This document shows positions 952 to 61,058 of a DNA stretch of 64,000 nt, one piece after another; the first letter of the stretch is position 1, and each line of letters starts with the position of its first letter. The position numbers and the translations under genes were made by a program. The notes under the pieces were generated by a model. That model was given only the letters and a program-made list of their open reading frames with translations. It did no database searches and was not told the origin of the DNA. The DNA is taken from positions 1 through 64,000 of the forward strand of contig NZ_RIZG01000001.1 of NCBI RefSeq assembly GCF_003721245.1, read 5' to 3'. The DNA is from Marinomonas hwangdonensis. GTDB lineage: Bacteria; Pseudomonadota; Gammaproteobacteria; Pseudomonadales; Marinomonadaceae.

Positions 952-2034
952 ATGAAATCCTTGAAACTGACGACACTTGTTGCTGCTACTGCAGTGATAA
1001 CCACGCTTTCCTTACCTGCTTTTTCTGCTGAAAAAGTATATAAACTAACAATGGCAGAGACATGGTCTTCTAACTTCCCAATCTTTGGTGATGCGCCAAG
1101 AAATATGGCCCGTATTGCCGAAGAGATGTCTGCTGGTCGTTTGAAAATTAACATTGACTCTGCAAATAAACACAAAGCACCTTTGGGTATCTTTGATTTA
1201 GTTCGTTCCGGTCAATATGATATGGGACATTCTGCTTCTTATTATTGGAAAGGCAAGGTGCCAAATACCTTATATTTCACCACTATGCCGTTTGGTATGA
1301 TTACCCCTGAGCAATATGGTTGGTTCTACCACGGCGGTGGTATGGAACTAATGCAGAAAGTCTATGAACCGTTTGGATTGATGTCTTTTCCAGGCGGTAA
1401 CACAGGAAATCAGATGGGAGGATGGTTTAAGAAAGAAATTAATACTCTAGATGATTTAAAAGGTCTGAAAATGCGTATTCCAGGCTTCGCTGGCGAAGTG
1501 CTAGCAAAACTGGGTGCGAATCCGACGAACATAGCATCTGGCGAGCTTTACACTGCACTTGAGCGTAACACAATAGATGCCCTTGAGTGGGTTGGACCAT
1601 CCCTTGATCTACGCATGGGCTTCCATAAAATTGCACCTTACTATTACACAGGGTGGCATGAGCCTGCTACAGAGTTACAATTCTTAGTGAATAAACGCGC
1701 TTGGGACAAGCTTCCAGCTGATCTTCAGCAGATTCTTAGCACCTCAATGAAGCTTGCTTCTTATGACATGTACATTCAGTCTTATCATGAGAGTGCAGAG
1801 AACTGGGCGACAATGCAACAAGAATACCCTGACATTAAAGTGAAAACCTTTCCTCAAGACATTCTCGTCGCTATGAAGAATGCGAACCAAGAGCTTTTGG
1901 ATGAAAGTGCAGCGAAAGATCCATTGGCAAAAGAAATTTTGGATTCTCAGGCAGCCTATATGAAAAAAGCACGGGTTTGGACCAATATTTCTGATCGCGC
2001 ATATCTCGATAGCGTTGATAGTTTAGCGGAATAA
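952..2034 (+). CDS. dctP: TRAP transporter substrate-binding protein DctP, TakP-like
   Basis: Periplasmic solute-binding protein of 360 residues. An N-terminal signal peptide ends at PAFSA before EKVYKLT. The segments GGGMELM, LKMRIPG (the conserved carboxylate-binding Arg region), ALEWVGPSLD and GWHEPATELQ resemble the TakP branch, whose known members bind 2-oxo acids, pyruvate or lactate. It captures the ligand for the DctQM permease encoded next. ATG 952 was chosen because it begins a normal signal peptide and an AGG lies 12 bases upstream. ATG 940, in frame, is an alternative. A terminator-like hairpin follows the stop, so dctP may be made in excess over the permease. The exact substrate cannot be read from the sequence. 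Confidence 0.9.
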   Translation: MKSLKLTTLVAATAVITTLSLPAFSAEKVYKLTMAETWSSNFPIFGDAPRNMARIAEEMSAGRLKINIDSANKHKAPLGIFDLVRSGQYDMGHSASYYWKGKVPNTLYFTTMPFGMITPEQYGWFYHGGGMELMQKVYEPFGLMSFPGGNTGNQMGGWFKKEINTLDDLKGLKMRIPGFAGEVLAKLGANPTNIASGELYTALERNTIDALEWVGPSLDLRMGFHKIAPYYYTGWHEPATELQFLVNKRAWDKLPADLQQILSTSMKLASYDMYIQSYHESAENWATMQQEYPDIKVKTFPQDILVAMKNANQELLDESAAKDPLAKEILDSQAAYMKKARVWTNISDRAYLDSVDSLAE

Positions 2035-2041
2035 ATCTCTA

Positions 2042-2075
2042 AGCAGGACAAGCCGATGTGTTTGTCCTGCTTTTT
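2042..2075 (+). terminator. Intercistronic terminator/attenuator between dctP and dctQ
   Basis: Stem AGCAGGACAA (2042-2051) pairs with TTGTCCTGCT (2062-2071) across a 10-base loop, followed by a T run to 2075. It sits between the dctP stop and the ribosome site of dctQ, so it probably gives partial termination. Confidence 0.75.
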
Positions 2076-2088
2076 CTAGGAGTCAATC

Positions 2089-2628
2089 ATGTTTTTAATC
2101 CACCTAGAGCGAGGCATTACTCGTTTTTCAAATTTCCTTGGCGTAATCTGTACGTTGATGTTTATCGCTCTGCTATTCAATGTGTTTTACGATGTTTTAA
2201 TGCGTTATGCGTTTAATAATGTTTCTATCGCGATGCAAGAACTTGAGTGGCATTTATATTCAGCCATATTTTTATTGGGTATACCTTATGGCATCCAACA
2301 CGGTGGACATGTTCGTGTTGACCTTATTTACGAAAACCTATCAATACGTGGTAAAGCGTGGACGGATTTATTTGGCTGTATTGTGTTTTTAATACCTTTT
2401 ACTCTTCTAGTCGGTTATTACGGAGTTGGATTTGCTTACGAGTCTTATGCACTTGGTGAAACCAGCGGTGACCCAGGTGGTTTGGCACATCGTTGGATTA
2501 TTAAAGGGGTTATACCTCTCGCCTTTTTCTGTATGACAATTAGCGGCATAGGTATGATACTTCGCTGCATAAATGCGTTACGTGGAGTAAGTGAAGAAGG
2601 TTTTTCTCATCCACCGATTCAGCATTAA
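2089..2628 (+). CDS. dctQ: TRAP transporter small permease DctQ
   Basis: Integral membrane protein of 179 residues with about four hydrophobic segments, the usual size and layout of DctQ. It forms the membrane complex with DctM and helps dock the ligand-loaded DctP. Visible family features are VMRYAFNN-type residues after the first helix and the HGGHVRVDL segment before the third. AGGAG at 2079-2083 gives a good ribosome site for ATG 2089. The gene lies 54 bases after dctP and 33 bases before dctM, in the usual PQM order. Confidence 0.9.
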   Translation: MFLIHLERGITRFSNFLGVICTLMFIALLFNVFYDVLMRYAFNNVSIAMQELEWHLYSAIFLLGIPYGIQHGGHVRVDLIYENLSIRGKAWTDLFGCIVFLIPFTLLVGYYGVGFAYESYALGETSGDPGGLAHRWIIKGVIPLAFFCMTISGIGMILRCINALRGVSEEGFSHPPIQH

Positions 2629-2661
2629 TTCCTGTTATCATTTTAGATTTGTAGGTTATTT

Positions 2662-3951
2662 ATGATTGGTATAATCATGTTTTTCGTTGCCCTGTTTTTA
2701 TTATTACTGGGCTTCCCTGTTGCCTTCACCTTTGGTGGTGTTGCTTTAATCTTTGGCGTGCTTGCTGAAGGTTTCGATATGTTCGCTTTCATGCCCTTCC
2801 GTATTCAAAGTTATATGGAAAATACCGTTCTGATGGCTGTTCCGCTGTTTGTTTTTATGGGTATTGTTCTTCAGAAAACGAGATTAGCTGAGCAATTGCT
2901 CGAAGCCATGGGAAAACTTTTTGGCAGCGTACGCGGTGGCTTGGCCATTTCTACTGTTCTTGTTGGTGCTCTTTTGGCAGCATCTACTGGCGTTGTTGGA
3001 GCCAGTGTTGTGGCAATGGGGTTGATTTCACTACCTGTCATGCTTAAGTATAACTACAGCAAGTCTCTAGCATGTGGAACAATCTGTGCCTCAGGTACAC
3101 TGGGTCAAATTATCCCACCGTCCATTATCTTAATTATACTAGGGGATGTGTTAGGTATTCCGGTTGGTGATCTTTTTCAAGCCGCTTTTTTTCCCGGTAT
3201 CATTTTAATTGGCTGTTATATTGTTTACATACTGATTTTGACATTTTTGAAGCCTGAGATGGCGCCAGCTATGCCTCAAGAGTTAGACAATGAGACACGA
3301 ACTCAACAAATTATCGCAGCTTTAAAAGCTATTATTCCCCCTCTTGCTTTGGTGCTAGTGGTTTTAGGTTCTATTTTTACAGGCATAGCAACACCAACAG
3401 AATCATCTGCTTTAGGTGGCATTGGTGCAATAGTATTGGCGCTGATTTATCGTCAGTTTAGTTGGAAGATGCTTTACGACAGTGGACTGGAAGCGGTTAA
3501 AGTGACGGCAATGGTATTTGCTATTTTACTTGGTGCAACAGCTTTCTCGATGGTATTTAGTTACACTGGTGGTGATGAAATTGTAGAGGAAGTGTTGCTT
3601 AATTTGCCAGGAGAAAAATGGGGCTTCATTATATTGGCTATGATCGCCATCCTAGTGTTAGGTTTTTTCATTGATTTCGTCGAGATTGCTTTCATAATCG
3701 TACCAATACTCGCGCCAGTTGCTGAGCTTTTGGGTATTAACATGGTGTGGTTCGCTATTCTGATTGCGATGAATCTACAGACATCGTTTTTGACGCCGCC
3801 GTTTGGTTTTAGTCTGTTTTATCTCAAGGGGGTTGCTCCAAGCTCTGTAAGAACAACCGATATTTATAAAGGTGTTACTCCGTTTATACTTATTCAGGTA
3901 CTCGTGTTGGCCAGTATCATGATATTTCCAGCGTTTTATGGCATGGGTTAA
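2662..3951 (+). CDS. dctM: TRAP transporter large permease DctM
   Basis: Membrane protein of 429 residues with about twelve hydrophobic segments, a typical DctM. It is the ion-coupled translocation subunit and uses a sodium gradient in characterised members. Family segments include ASGTLGQIIPPSI in the first half, GIATPTESSALGGIGA in the middle and LQTSFLTPPFGFSLFYLKG near the end. It closes the dctPQM operon and is followed by a clear intrinsic terminator. Substrate is set by DctP and is predicted to be a 2-oxo or related monocarboxylic acid. Confidence 0.93.
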   Translation: MIGIIMFFVALFLLLLGFPVAFTFGGVALIFGVLAEGFDMFAFMPFRIQSYMENTVLMAVPLFVFMGIVLQKTRLAEQLLEAMGKLFGSVRGGLAISTVLVGALLAASTGVVGASVVAMGLISLPVMLKYNYSKSLACGTICASGTLGQIIPPSIILIILGDVLGIPVGDLFQAAFFPGIILIGCYIVYILILTFLKPEMAPAMPQELDNETRTQQIIAALKAIIPPLALVLVVLGSIFTGIATPTESSALGGIGAIVLALIYRQFSWKMLYDSGLEAVKVTAMVFAILLGATAFSMVFSYTGGDEIVEEVLLNLPGEKWGFIILAMIAILVLGFFIDFVEIAFIIVPILAPVAELLGINMVWFAILIAMNLQTSFLTPPFGFSLFYLKGVAPSSVRTTDIYKGVTPFILIQVLVLASIMIFPAFYGMG

Positions 3952-58818: not shown

Positions 58819-58864
58819 TTTTATAGGCTAAATCGTACTAACATGACCAAGGAGGGCTTAGCTT

Positions 58865-59464
58865 GTGTCAAATAAAACGCTCAATTACTACAATCAGCAT
58901 GCTCAAGATTTTAATGATTCAACATTAAATATTGATATGTCATCGCTGTATGGTGAGTTTCTTCCACTGATAGAGCCTTATGGCCATATTCTTGATGCGG
59001 GCTGCGGATCAGCACGCGATGCCATATATTTTAAACAACAAGGCTTTCGTGTTAGTGCTTTTGATGCGAGCGAGAAATTAGCCTCGATTGCTTCTCGAAA
59101 TTTAAATCAAGTTGTAGAAGTAAGCACATTTCAAACCATGAACTCACAAAATCAATACGACGGTATTTGGTGTTGTGCCAGTTTGTTACACGTCCCCAAG
59201 ATAGATTTGCCTCTTGCGTTCTTGAATCTACAAAATGCCATGACAAACAAAGGCGTTTTATATGTTTCGTTTAAATATGGCGATTTAGAGCGAGAGCAAA
59301 ACGGTAGAATATTTACAGATCTTAATGAAGCTATGTTAGAAAATTTAATTGCTAGGCTCGTAGAGCTAAAAATCGTTAAACAATGGCAAAGCGTTGACCA
59401 GCGACCAGATCGCAAAACGGAAATTTGGCTTAATGCGCTAATAAGAAAAGAGACAGAAAATTAG
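58865..59464 (+). CDS. Class I SAM-dependent methyltransferase
   Basis: Cytoplasmic methyltransferase-fold protein of 199 residues. Motif I is LDAGCGSARDA (residues 43-53; many relatives have GSGRD), motif II includes VSAFDAS, and a later segment is IWCCASLLHVPKIDLP. The substrate is not predictable; nothing marks it as a DNA methyltransferase (no DPPY or PCQ motif). GTG 58865 follows AAGGAGG. Its stop is directly followed by the ATG of the HNH-S24 gene. Family members are often found alone in gammaproteobacteria, so the pairing may or may not be functional. Confidence 0.82.
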   Translation: MSNKTLNYYNQHAQDFNDSTLNIDMSSLYGEFLPLIEPYGHILDAGCGSARDAIYFKQQGFRVSAFDASEKLASIASRNLNQVVEVSTFQTMNSQNQYDGIWCCASLLHVPKIDLPLAFLNLQNAMTNKGVLYVSFKYGDLEREQNGRIFTDLNEAMLENLIARLVELKIVKQWQSVDQRPDRKTEIWLNALIRKETEN

Positions 59465-61009
59465 ATGGATGGAATGATGCAGCGGCAACTGGATTTTATC
59501 TCCTACATACAGCGTATGTTAGTAGAAGGTGATTTTAGCGCTACATACAAATTTGCTCTGCTGCATGCTATAGCTGATGTGTGCATTGAGCAGCCGTTGA
59601 AATCGGATGAAGATAAACTGATTATAGAATTGCCTACATTGGCAGACAAAATGATTGATTTATATTGGTATCATGCAACGCCATTTTCTTCTGAGCAAAC
59701 AGGTGAGAATGCCTTGTTAAAACAAAACACAGGTAATCAGTCAAAGGTAATTCGTGTTTTATTTGAGTGTCAGCAAAATAATATTCGTAATTTTCGGCAG
59801 CTTAAACAAAGTGCTTTTTATCTGCCTACATTTAATGCCGCTATGACCACATTAAAAAATGGTCCGCTTTGGCGGTTACAGATATTGGCAAAGCAGGAAG
59901 AATGTTTTTTATATCCCCATACAAAAAGCACAAAATCTATTGTCTTAAATGCGGGTATTGCCAGTTGCTTTAGACGTTTTTACGATTTGGTCGTGTATTT
60001 GGCGAAAAACGCTTGGATCCAAAAAATACAAAGCATTAAGCATAATCAAGTGTTAATTGGGCCGCAGAGTCAATTACAGGATTTCTTGTTTGGTGTCGAT
60101 CGTAGTGTGCTTATCAAGGCAAAACCTGTGCTTGTGGAGCTGCAGTCTAACCGATGTTTTTATTGTCAAAAACCAATGAAAGGTGAAATAGAAGTCGATC
60201 ATTTTATTCCATTTGCTCGTTATTCTCACGATTTAGGTCATAATTTTGTGGCTGCTCATTCTGTCTGCAATAACAGCAAGCGCGACTTTCTAGCGGCACA
60301 ATTACATAGGGAGCGTTGGCAAGAACAAAATCTCGTGATTCATGAGCGTAGCCTGTCTGAAGCGCTTAGTCCATATTTTTACTGTGATGCCGATAAGTCT
60401 CAGGCTGTCAGTGATTGGGCCTATCAAGTTGCGTGTGTGAATGGTGCCAAGCTATGGCTAAGCAAAGACAGGTTTGAAGAGGCTAGGTCAGTCAGTAAAC
60501 TTTCCTTGTTAAACCAGATGGCGTCATTAGAAGTGAGGGCTCAAGACAATTCACATCATCAAAAGGTCGATATTTCTATTGCAGACTTTAGTACTCAATT
60601 ACCTTATTTCCCCAACTTAAAGATGGCATGTGGGCACTTTAAAACAGGTGACGACAGCGATGTTGAGTATATTGGTGTCCAAGATAACGTAGGCCGTTTC
60701 AGCCCTAGCAATCACTTTTTGGCAAGGGCGTCAGGTAATTCTATGAATGGTGGTAAAAATGCCATTTATGATGGGGATTTATTGTTGTTTGAATGGATTG
60801 CTGCTGATAAAGCTGGATCACTACAAGGTGCGACTGTTGCTATAGAGTGCGATGGATATGGCGATGAAAGCCAGTATTTGTTACGTAATGTGGAAAAAAT
60901 CGCGGAGGGCAGGTATCTGCTTATTGCGTATAACTCAGAGTATAGTGCTTTGGAATCAGACGAGTCTATGCGAACATTCGCTCGACTCGTTCGACGTATT
61001 GATAAATAA
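59465..61009 (+). CDS. HNH endonuclease fused to a LexA/UmuD-like S24 domain
   Basis: Protein of 514 residues. Residues 1-220 are helical and unrecognised. An HNH nuclease follows: CFYC (231-234), VDHFIPF (Asp245-His246), GHN and AHSVCNNSKRD (260-274). The C-terminal S24 domain has a Cys-Gly pair (389-390), SGNSM with the nucleophile Ser426, and YDGDLLLF. Cys-Gly lies 37 residues before the Ser, close to UmuD (Cys24, Ser60) and LexA (Ala84, Ser119). The position of the catalytic Lys appears to hold Arg474 (YLLRNVE). Suggested role: a nuclease restrained or released by self-cleavage. It starts at the base after the methyltransferase stop. Confidence 0.8.
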   Translation: MDGMMQRQLDFISYIQRMLVEGDFSATYKFALLHAIADVCIEQPLKSDEDKLIIELPTLADKMIDLYWYHATPFSSEQTGENALLKQNTGNQSKVIRVLFECQQNNIRNFRQLKQSAFYLPTFNAAMTTLKNGPLWRLQILAKQEECFLYPHTKSTKSIVLNAGIASCFRRFYDLVVYLAKNAWIQKIQSIKHNQVLIGPQSQLQDFLFGVDRSVLIKAKPVLVELQSNRCFYCQKPMKGEIEVDHFIPFARYSHDLGHNFVAAHSVCNNSKRDFLAAQLHRERWQEQNLVIHERSLSEALSPYFYCDADKSQAVSDWAYQVACVNGAKLWLSKDRFEEARSVSKLSLLNQMASLEVRAQDNSHHQKVDISIADFSTQLPYFPNLKMACGHFKTGDDSDVEYIGVQDNVGRFSPSNHFLARASGNSMNGGKNAIYDGDLLLFEWIAADKAGSLQGATVAIECDGYGDESQYLLRNVEKIAEGRYLLIAYNSEYSALESDESMRTFARLVRRIDK

Positions 61010-61058
61010 AAGACTTTAATAATGCTGCTGTTTTCGTCTGTCTTATAAATTGGCCAAC

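Follow-up and report, generated by a model that had tools for sequence, protein, structure and literature searches.

A methyltransferase and HNH nuclease cassette of Marinomonas hwangdonensis with a LexA-like tail exchanged between nucleases: a candidate restriction-type defence module

The first 64,000 nucleotides of contig NZ_RIZG01000001.1 of Marinomonas hwangdonensis (assembly GCF_003721245.1; this whole stretch is called the window below) carry, between dtd and tatC, a two-gene cassette in which a small methyltransferase gene is followed without a gap by the gene of a 514-residue protein that joins an HNH nuclease domain to a LexA/UmuD-like S24 domain. Comparison of related loci shows, as far as sequences can, that the S24-like tail is an optional module exchanged between different nucleases. 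The reading that we favour, with about even confidence, is that of a restriction-type defence cassette that is accessory and moves horizontally. Its S24 domain would be a portable module for regulation or targeting with an impaired peptidase, and the upstream gene would supply a dedicated companion enzyme. A first-pass annotation of the window had proposed a candidate defence or programmed-response module; the defence part of that proposal is kept here in the form of an accessory restriction-type system, and its idea of a damage-sensing release is weakened.

The cassette and its exchangeable S24-like tail

The two open reading frames lie where the first-pass annotation had placed them (58865-59464 and 59465-61009), with the ATG of the second coming right after the stop codon of the first. 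Its view of the flanks as housekeeping genes holds for dtd (Pfam Tyr_Deacylase, 6.9e-55) and tatC (Pfam, 1.8e-68), and extends to all six flanking genes, each of which was checked. The features of the cassette are as follows.

58865..59464, + strand: methyltransferase gene, class I, S-adenosylmethionine-dependent, 199 residues, first in the cassette, with the motif DAGCGSARD
59465..61009, + strand: gene of the HNH-S24 protein, 514 residues, abutting the methyltransferase stop codon, with homologues at other loci
59465..60094, + strand: N-terminal region, residues 1-210, mostly helical, with many invariant columns in relatives and without a Pfam match
60155..60286, + strand: HNH nuclease domain, residues 231-274, with a Pfam HNH match and invariant residues
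60593..61003, + strand: S24 domain, LexA/UmuD-like, about residues 377-513, common to PLD-helicase proteins
60629..60634, + strand: Cys389-Gly390, aligning with the Cys-Gly cleavage site of UmuD, invariant in 32/32 readable rows
60740..60742, + strand: Ser426 (GNSM), at the S24 nucleophile position, invariant in 32/32 readable rows
60884..60886, + strand: Arg474 (QYLLR), in the column of the LexA/UmuD catalytic lysine, arginine in 30/30 readable rows

Against Pfam, the methyltransferase matches Methyltransf_25 (1.9e-10) and the 514-residue protein matches HNH (9.2e-06, residues 231-274) and Peptidase_S24 (PF00717, 1.2e-07, residues 386-503), each above the curated cut-off. The metal and zinc residues of an HNH endonuclease (CxxC, DH, N and HxxC), whose individual roles are known from the family, are present; C231, C234, D245, H246, N260, H265, C268 and N269 are invariant in 23/23 rows of an alignment in which two rows are identical. 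The methyltransferase gene starts with GTG and has, by eye, an AGGAGG-like site just 5' of the start. Its G+C content sets the cassette apart (39.7% vs 44.4% for the window), a value as low being reached by 1/310 sliding windows of the same size, and that one may overlap the cassette. A scan for promoters and terminators gave 12 promoter-like sites against 6.1 expected and 1 terminator-like site against 2.1 expected, none of which was used.

The joining of HNH and S24 had been called uncommon, a description that holds. In a scan of the species-genome collection for HNH relatives, 29 loci were found, of which nine carry S24 and 20 lack it. The nine (two in Pseudoalteromonas, four in Rheinheimera and three in Arsukibacterium) all have the methyltransferase directly upstream of the HNH-S24 gene, as does the window, and over the full set it stands upstream on the same strand in 29/29, abutting in 22 and at 0.26-0.78 kb in seven. 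In the seven pairs compared, the nonsynonymous divergence (dN) of S24 is well below the synonymous one (dS), and dN peaks in the linker that precedes S24 in 6/7 (linker values of 0.14-1.26 across the seven). An assembly accident, a one-off frameshift or a deletion scar as the origin of the fusion is ruled out by the nine homologous loci and by dN lying below dS.

The distribution of the tail does not follow that of the nuclease. A tree built from the HNH part has 28 rows, 10 of which carry S24, and long outgroup branches. On it, the presence of S24 needs four changes, three of them forced by well-supported branches, and the sister pairs L060/L066 and L087/L056 each differ in it. When L060 is compared with L087, dS is saturated in the N-terminal region (dN 0.378) and in HNH (dN 0.306), but S24 has a dN of 0.013 at a dS of 0.503; the HNH parts have diverged strongly and the S24 parts only slightly, which shows separate ancestry of the two domains. 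These separate ancestries, together with the four changes on the tree, rule out a single entry of S24 into the HNH family followed by plain inheritance.

The same S24 subfamily (about 40-62% identity to that of the window) recurs close to the C-terminal end of ResIII-Helicase_C proteins. Besides ResIII and Helicase_C, Pfam finds PLDc in most of these proteins and DUF3427 in many, the DUF3427 region following S24 where it is present; they match the PADLOC profile mREase_IV with a best value of 3.1e-127. Among 20 such helicase-S24 proteins in the regions fetched (the split L052 and the fragmentary L058 are not counted), the methyltransferase is upstream on the same strand in 14, convergent in one and fused in one chain in two, and the remaining three, two of them with a short reading frame, show no methyltransferase match above 60 bits. 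Genomic context was not fetched for G332, G093, G121, G230, G270 and a fragment in G1038; in G093, G121, G230 and G270 methyltransferase and S24 are probably fused, because both match open frames of equal length (1282-1301 residues), and G332 has no entry among the methyltransferase-profile matches.

At one Pseudoalteromonas site, the loci L060, L057 and L066 share the flanking DNA, the methyltransferase and the DNA just downstream, and the cargo is methyltransferase-HNH-S24 in L060, methyltransferase-PLD-helicase-S24 in L057 and methyltransferase-HNH in L066. The S24 of helicase L057 is 89% identical to that of L060 and 92% identical to that of L087. As a separate observation, a superfamily 2 (SF2) helicase without a PLDc match (L177, 7992-10913) carries a truncated start of S24, with a methyltransferase upstream.

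Altered S24 dyad and nearest known systems

Both the Pfam match (PF00717) and a Foldseek search with a modest model (mean predicted local distance difference test, pLDDT, 61.7 for the 514-residue protein) assign a LexA-like fold to the S24 domain; LexA is matched (3k2z, 7b5g) with a best E of 8.9e-04, the sole match below 0.001, and the matches are to its C-terminal domain, some of them in structures that contain the cleavage region. For the N-terminal region, where model confidence is low, Foldseek gave no usable match among the best 50 rows, and a sequence search of the PDB with the 514-residue protein returned weak matches only (best E 0.091).

The Cys-Gly and serine positions were fixed by a weak PDB match to UmuD (E 0.018). 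In an alignment of 33 distinct S24 rows, fragments included, Ser426 and Cys389-Gly390 fill all 32 readable cells, giving the domain both a nucleophile and a cleavable bond. The catalytic-lysine column, fixed by aligning four other S24 proteins encoded in this genome (LexA, a UmuD-like and two repressor-like ones), is lysine in 4/4 of these proteins and arginine in 30/30 readable cells of the family. Because the catalytic lysine is absent, the domain is, judged by its residues, not a standard S24 peptidase, and its replacement by arginine makes plain LexA-type self-cleavage doubtful, yet the site is strictly constrained; a docked latch, either non-cleaving or conditionally cleaving, would fit best. 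A LexA mutant with lysine changed to arginine is said to cleave slowly at high pH, and the literature search found no such paper. The likeness to the C-terminal S24 domains of LexA and UmuD thus covers the fold, the Cys-Gly site and the serine, whereas the arginine and the fusion to nucleases set the domain apart from them, since there S24 is fused to a DNA-binding repressor or acts with a polymerase. LexA-box-like sites number 24 in the window against 21.4 expected; none lies from 55254 to the cassette, and the only exact one is inside the HNH gene, at 60261.

The helicase-S24 relatives resemble SauUSI (PMC7913695) in their domain content and in their mREase_IV match. The window protein differs in having HNH in place of the PLD-ATPase and in lacking DUF3427; without PLDc, ATPase or SRA, it is by its domains not a SauUSI member. 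Because that paper orders SauUSI as nuclease, ATPase, coupler and SRA target domain, S24 in the helicases would sit between the coupler and SRA, or replace SRA; in L045, L047 and L057 it ends the protein, at the place of the SRA target domain in SauUSI. The terms "S24" and "LexA" have 0 occurrences in the main text of PMC7913695. Endonucleases of the SRA-HNH type such as TagI (PMC6212794) are likewise stand-alone nucleases in which HNH is joined to a second domain; the window protein differs from them in its S24-like domain for SRA, in an N-terminal region without a Pfam match, and in a companion methyltransferase or HIT gene. The mad2 protein of MADS (PADLOC PDLC04134) has a methyltransferase region that matches that of the cassette (1.9e-13, 48 bits), but the match of methyltransferase residues 28-160 covers only positions 282-416 of the 492-position profile.

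The companion enzyme

The nearest solved structure to the methyltransferase model (pLDDT 93.9) is RPA2492 (3e23; template-modelling score 0.88), of unknown function, and further structure rows comprise small-molecule and peptide methyltransferases, TehB and some RNA methyltransferases (METTL6, Bud23), the last of which make RNA a possible substrate. Pfam and NCBIfam return other class I families only (such as TehB, UbiG and BchM) and no DNA-methylase family; inspection of the sequence by eye shows no motif of a DNA amino-methylase. Against PHROGs there is a weak match to a tRNA methyltransferase.

Across 51 HNH loci (two pairs of which are the same genome fetched twice), 41 carry this methyltransferase, nine a HIT-family gene, one (L044) neither and none both, the companion always lying upstream on the same strand. 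HNH identity is 54-81% in the methyltransferase loci, plus L211 at 35%, and the HIT gene precedes distant HNH relatives of 31-45% identity (L038-L043, L168, L180 and L210), its family being confirmed by Pfam in 5/5 tested and annotated in L210. Spacing is short in both groups: the methyltransferase is within about 40 bases of HNH in 31/41 loci and the HIT gene within 80 bases in 8/9. Since either one, but never both, is found at an HNH locus, the two genes look interchangeable. Where HNH identity exceeds 50%, the methyltransferase is upstream in each of the 40 loci examined, with a broken gene in L059.

The first-pass annotation had noted the tight coupling of methyltransferase and nuclease and described the former as a protective or unrelated partner. 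Co-conservation in 41/51 loci upholds the coupling. The term protective is weakened by the family and structure results given above, and unrelated is contradicted by the near-constant pairing and by one-chain fusions; pairing in 41/51 HNH loci and in most S24-bearing loci rules out an unrelated neighbour. Some single chains of 560-581 residues unite this type of methyltransferase with a different HNH protein, whose HNH domain is C-terminal (L146 and L147 by Pfam, L149 and L154 by profiles built here), and in L137 the methyltransferase adjoins a PLD-helicase without S24.

Two loci deserve separate mention. In L059 (7392-7993, Marinomonas algicola) the methyltransferase frame is broken in two and the HNH gene is open, and in L040 a helicase-SRA protein (1-1686, cut by the contig end) stands directly before the HIT-HNH pair (1714-3271).

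Distribution, genomic setting and the readings weighed

That the cassette is an accessory insertion, as had been supposed, agrees with the same-genus sample, in which tatC was located in 21/21 genomes and loci (1.5 kb each side of tatC) were taken from 20, the window's own included. The dtd and tatC stop codons are 2-203 bases apart in 13 of the 19 other loci, 520 bases apart in L206 and 1.08-1.21 kb apart in L200, L201, L202 and L204, with dtd outside the fetched stretch in L193; within the 1.5 kb on each side of tatC, neither the methyltransferase nor the HNH gene was found in any of these 19. In G253 and G233, two of the same-genus genomes, an HNH relative with its methyltransferase lies on a contig other than that of tatC.

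In samples that overlap in part, some portion of the 514-residue protein is matched in 42/390 genomes of the order (the window's own included, many weaker rows being HNH-domain matches only) and in 11/369 of the class (HNH-only rows among them), and a profile of S24 alone matches 7/398 of the phylum, none of them more distant than the same class. Within the genus, 7/18 listed genomes match, counting the window's and one with a helicase-S24 protein only. The order-sample count rules out a core gene, and the situation that the first-pass annotation had named as fatal to its proposal, a widespread core gene without the methyltransferase, does not hold. An IMG/VR search with the S24 alignment found only an already known contig, the matching gene in L031 being identical to L086.

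Ten plasmid or chromid regions came with annotation, and nine were usable (L058 has no listed genes). The defence-like setting suspected for such modules was found for some relatives: 4/9 regions lie beside clear defence or restriction-modification genes, namely McrBC and a type I restriction-modification system (L059), ABC-three-component genes (L057), DUF87 and DNA cytosine methyltransferase genes (L056) and a type I-Fv CRISPR locus (L211). In L054 and L209 only a DEAD/DEAH helicase or a nuclease-related gene is nearby. The genes around L086 include some of a mobile-element kind (SSB, ParB-like, DNA methyltransferase), and genes for the SOS response-associated peptidase (SRAP) lie near both the L086 and the L210 copies.

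Four other explanations of the cassette were weighed. An ordinary restriction-modification pair, with the methyltransferase shielding host DNA from the HNH enzyme, would account for the coupling of the two genes and for the one-chain fusions (L050, L174, L146 and L147), but it is hardly credible for an enzyme whose family matches are TehB-, UbiG- and BchM-like class I only, whose nearest structures are uncharacterised or act on small molecules, peptides or RNA, which shows a weak tRNA methyltransferase match and no visible DNA amino-methylase motif, and for which a HIT gene stands in at nine loci. HIT proteins include DNA-end repair enzymes, which, with the SRAP genes near L210 and L086, would suit a cassette for DNA repair or genome maintenance rather than defence; the patchy occurrence in the genus, the exchange with restriction-type PLD-helicase proteins at a single site in the chromosome, and the plasmid and mobile contexts make such a role quite improbable.

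The remaining two concern the S24 domain. The first-pass annotation took it for a damage-sensing self-cleavage domain, so that RecA filaments would induce S24 cleavage at Cys389-Gly390 and the HNH part would be freed. The invariant serine and Cys-Gly pair, weakly aligned with UmuD, keep a conditional cleavage possible, as does a fold that matches LexA structures with the cleavage region; the arginine where the other S24 proteins of the genome have lysine, the lack of a LexA-box-like site from 55254 to the cassette and a count of such sites in the window of 24 vs 21.4 expected nonetheless leave a damage-released nuclease unlikely. Alternatively, S24 could be a target reader that replaces the SRA of SauUSI, and the HNH-S24 protein an ATP-independent, modification-dependent (type IV-like) endonuclease laid out like the SRA-HNH enzymes. 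The terminal position in L045, L047 and L057 and the swapping of S24 together with downstream DNA between nucleases would be expected in that case. Other helicases, however, carry both S24 and DUF3427/SRA, and both nucleases have versions without S24 or SRA (helicase L137; 20/29 HNH loci), because of which S24 would not simply be the missing reader; as base reading would also leave the invariant serine and Cys-Gly unexplained, we consider this rather unlikely too.

In the restriction-type defence cassette that we favour, the methyltransferase and HNH-S24 genes would be co-translated, the HNH domain would cut invading or altered DNA, and the N-terminal region would provide basic DNA engagement, as the persistence of S24-less versions suggests. 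Self-proteolysis would play little part in the action of the S24 domain; serving as a latch or recognition module, S24 would dock its Cys-Gly segment in the Ser-Arg cleft and so tune when or where the nuclease acts. The substrate of the companion enzyme would be a small molecule, a nucleotide, a DNA end or a protein linked to the same response, and the enzyme itself would be required for function or host safety. The cassette may thus be a modification-dependent or otherwise regulated nuclease.

Several observations weigh against this interpretation. No specific PADLOC 2.0 anti-phage profile matches the cassette, which gives only generic HNH and partial mad2 matches, those of the HNH-S24 protein being confined to the HNH region (Cas9, PtuB and similar models), and no match was found in 50,697 phage records, so there is no phage-side trace. 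The count of 4/9 defence neighbours stands without a control set of neighbours, and no defence gene is evident around L053, L055 and L210 or in the window's own flanks. In 10/41 loci the methyltransferase lies 0.26-3.65 kb upstream instead of abutting, and its profile hits 124/381 genomes at 1e-12, far more genomes than contain the HNH protein or the S24 protein; the methyltransferase family at large is therefore not confined to the module. Finally, the low-confidence model reveals no mode of contact between S24 and HNH, and an invariant serine and Cys-Gly would also fit real cleavage.

More tentatively, the cassette and its relatives could represent an undescribed modular class of nuclease defence, possible though short of probable, in which a nuclease (HNH or PLD-SF2 helicase) stands between a companion (TehB-like methyltransferase or HIT) and a LexA-like switch that has lost its lysine to arginine and is non-proteolytic or conditionally proteolytic. 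The target of the companion may be the switch itself, for example the invariant cysteine at what was once the site of cleavage, or the companion may produce or clear a small-molecule cue. In the literature searched (listings and term searches, with most subscription papers and bioRxiv outside), no description of the HNH-S24, methyltransferase and SauUSI-like arrangement was found, nor of the combination of SauUSI-like proteins, a stand-alone HNH family and an altered-dyad LexA-like domain tied to one small methyltransferase. If S24 is a non-cleaving switch, one of the best-studied folds among regulatory peptidases would have been put to a new use. The exchange of HIT and methyltransferase raises the biochemical question of which step either enzyme can serve, and the Pseudoalteromonas site, with its methyltransferase-HNH, methyltransferase-HNH-S24 and methyltransferase-helicase-S24 versions, allows the roles of switch and companion to be tested by gene comparison.

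As a side observation on the insertion site, the dtd-tatC gap (58819-61058 in the window) appears to vary in content across the genus: an open reading frame of about 315 residues occupies it in L200, L201, L202 and L204, and belongs by Pfam to the ornithine cyclodeaminase family in L200 and L202, the two tested.

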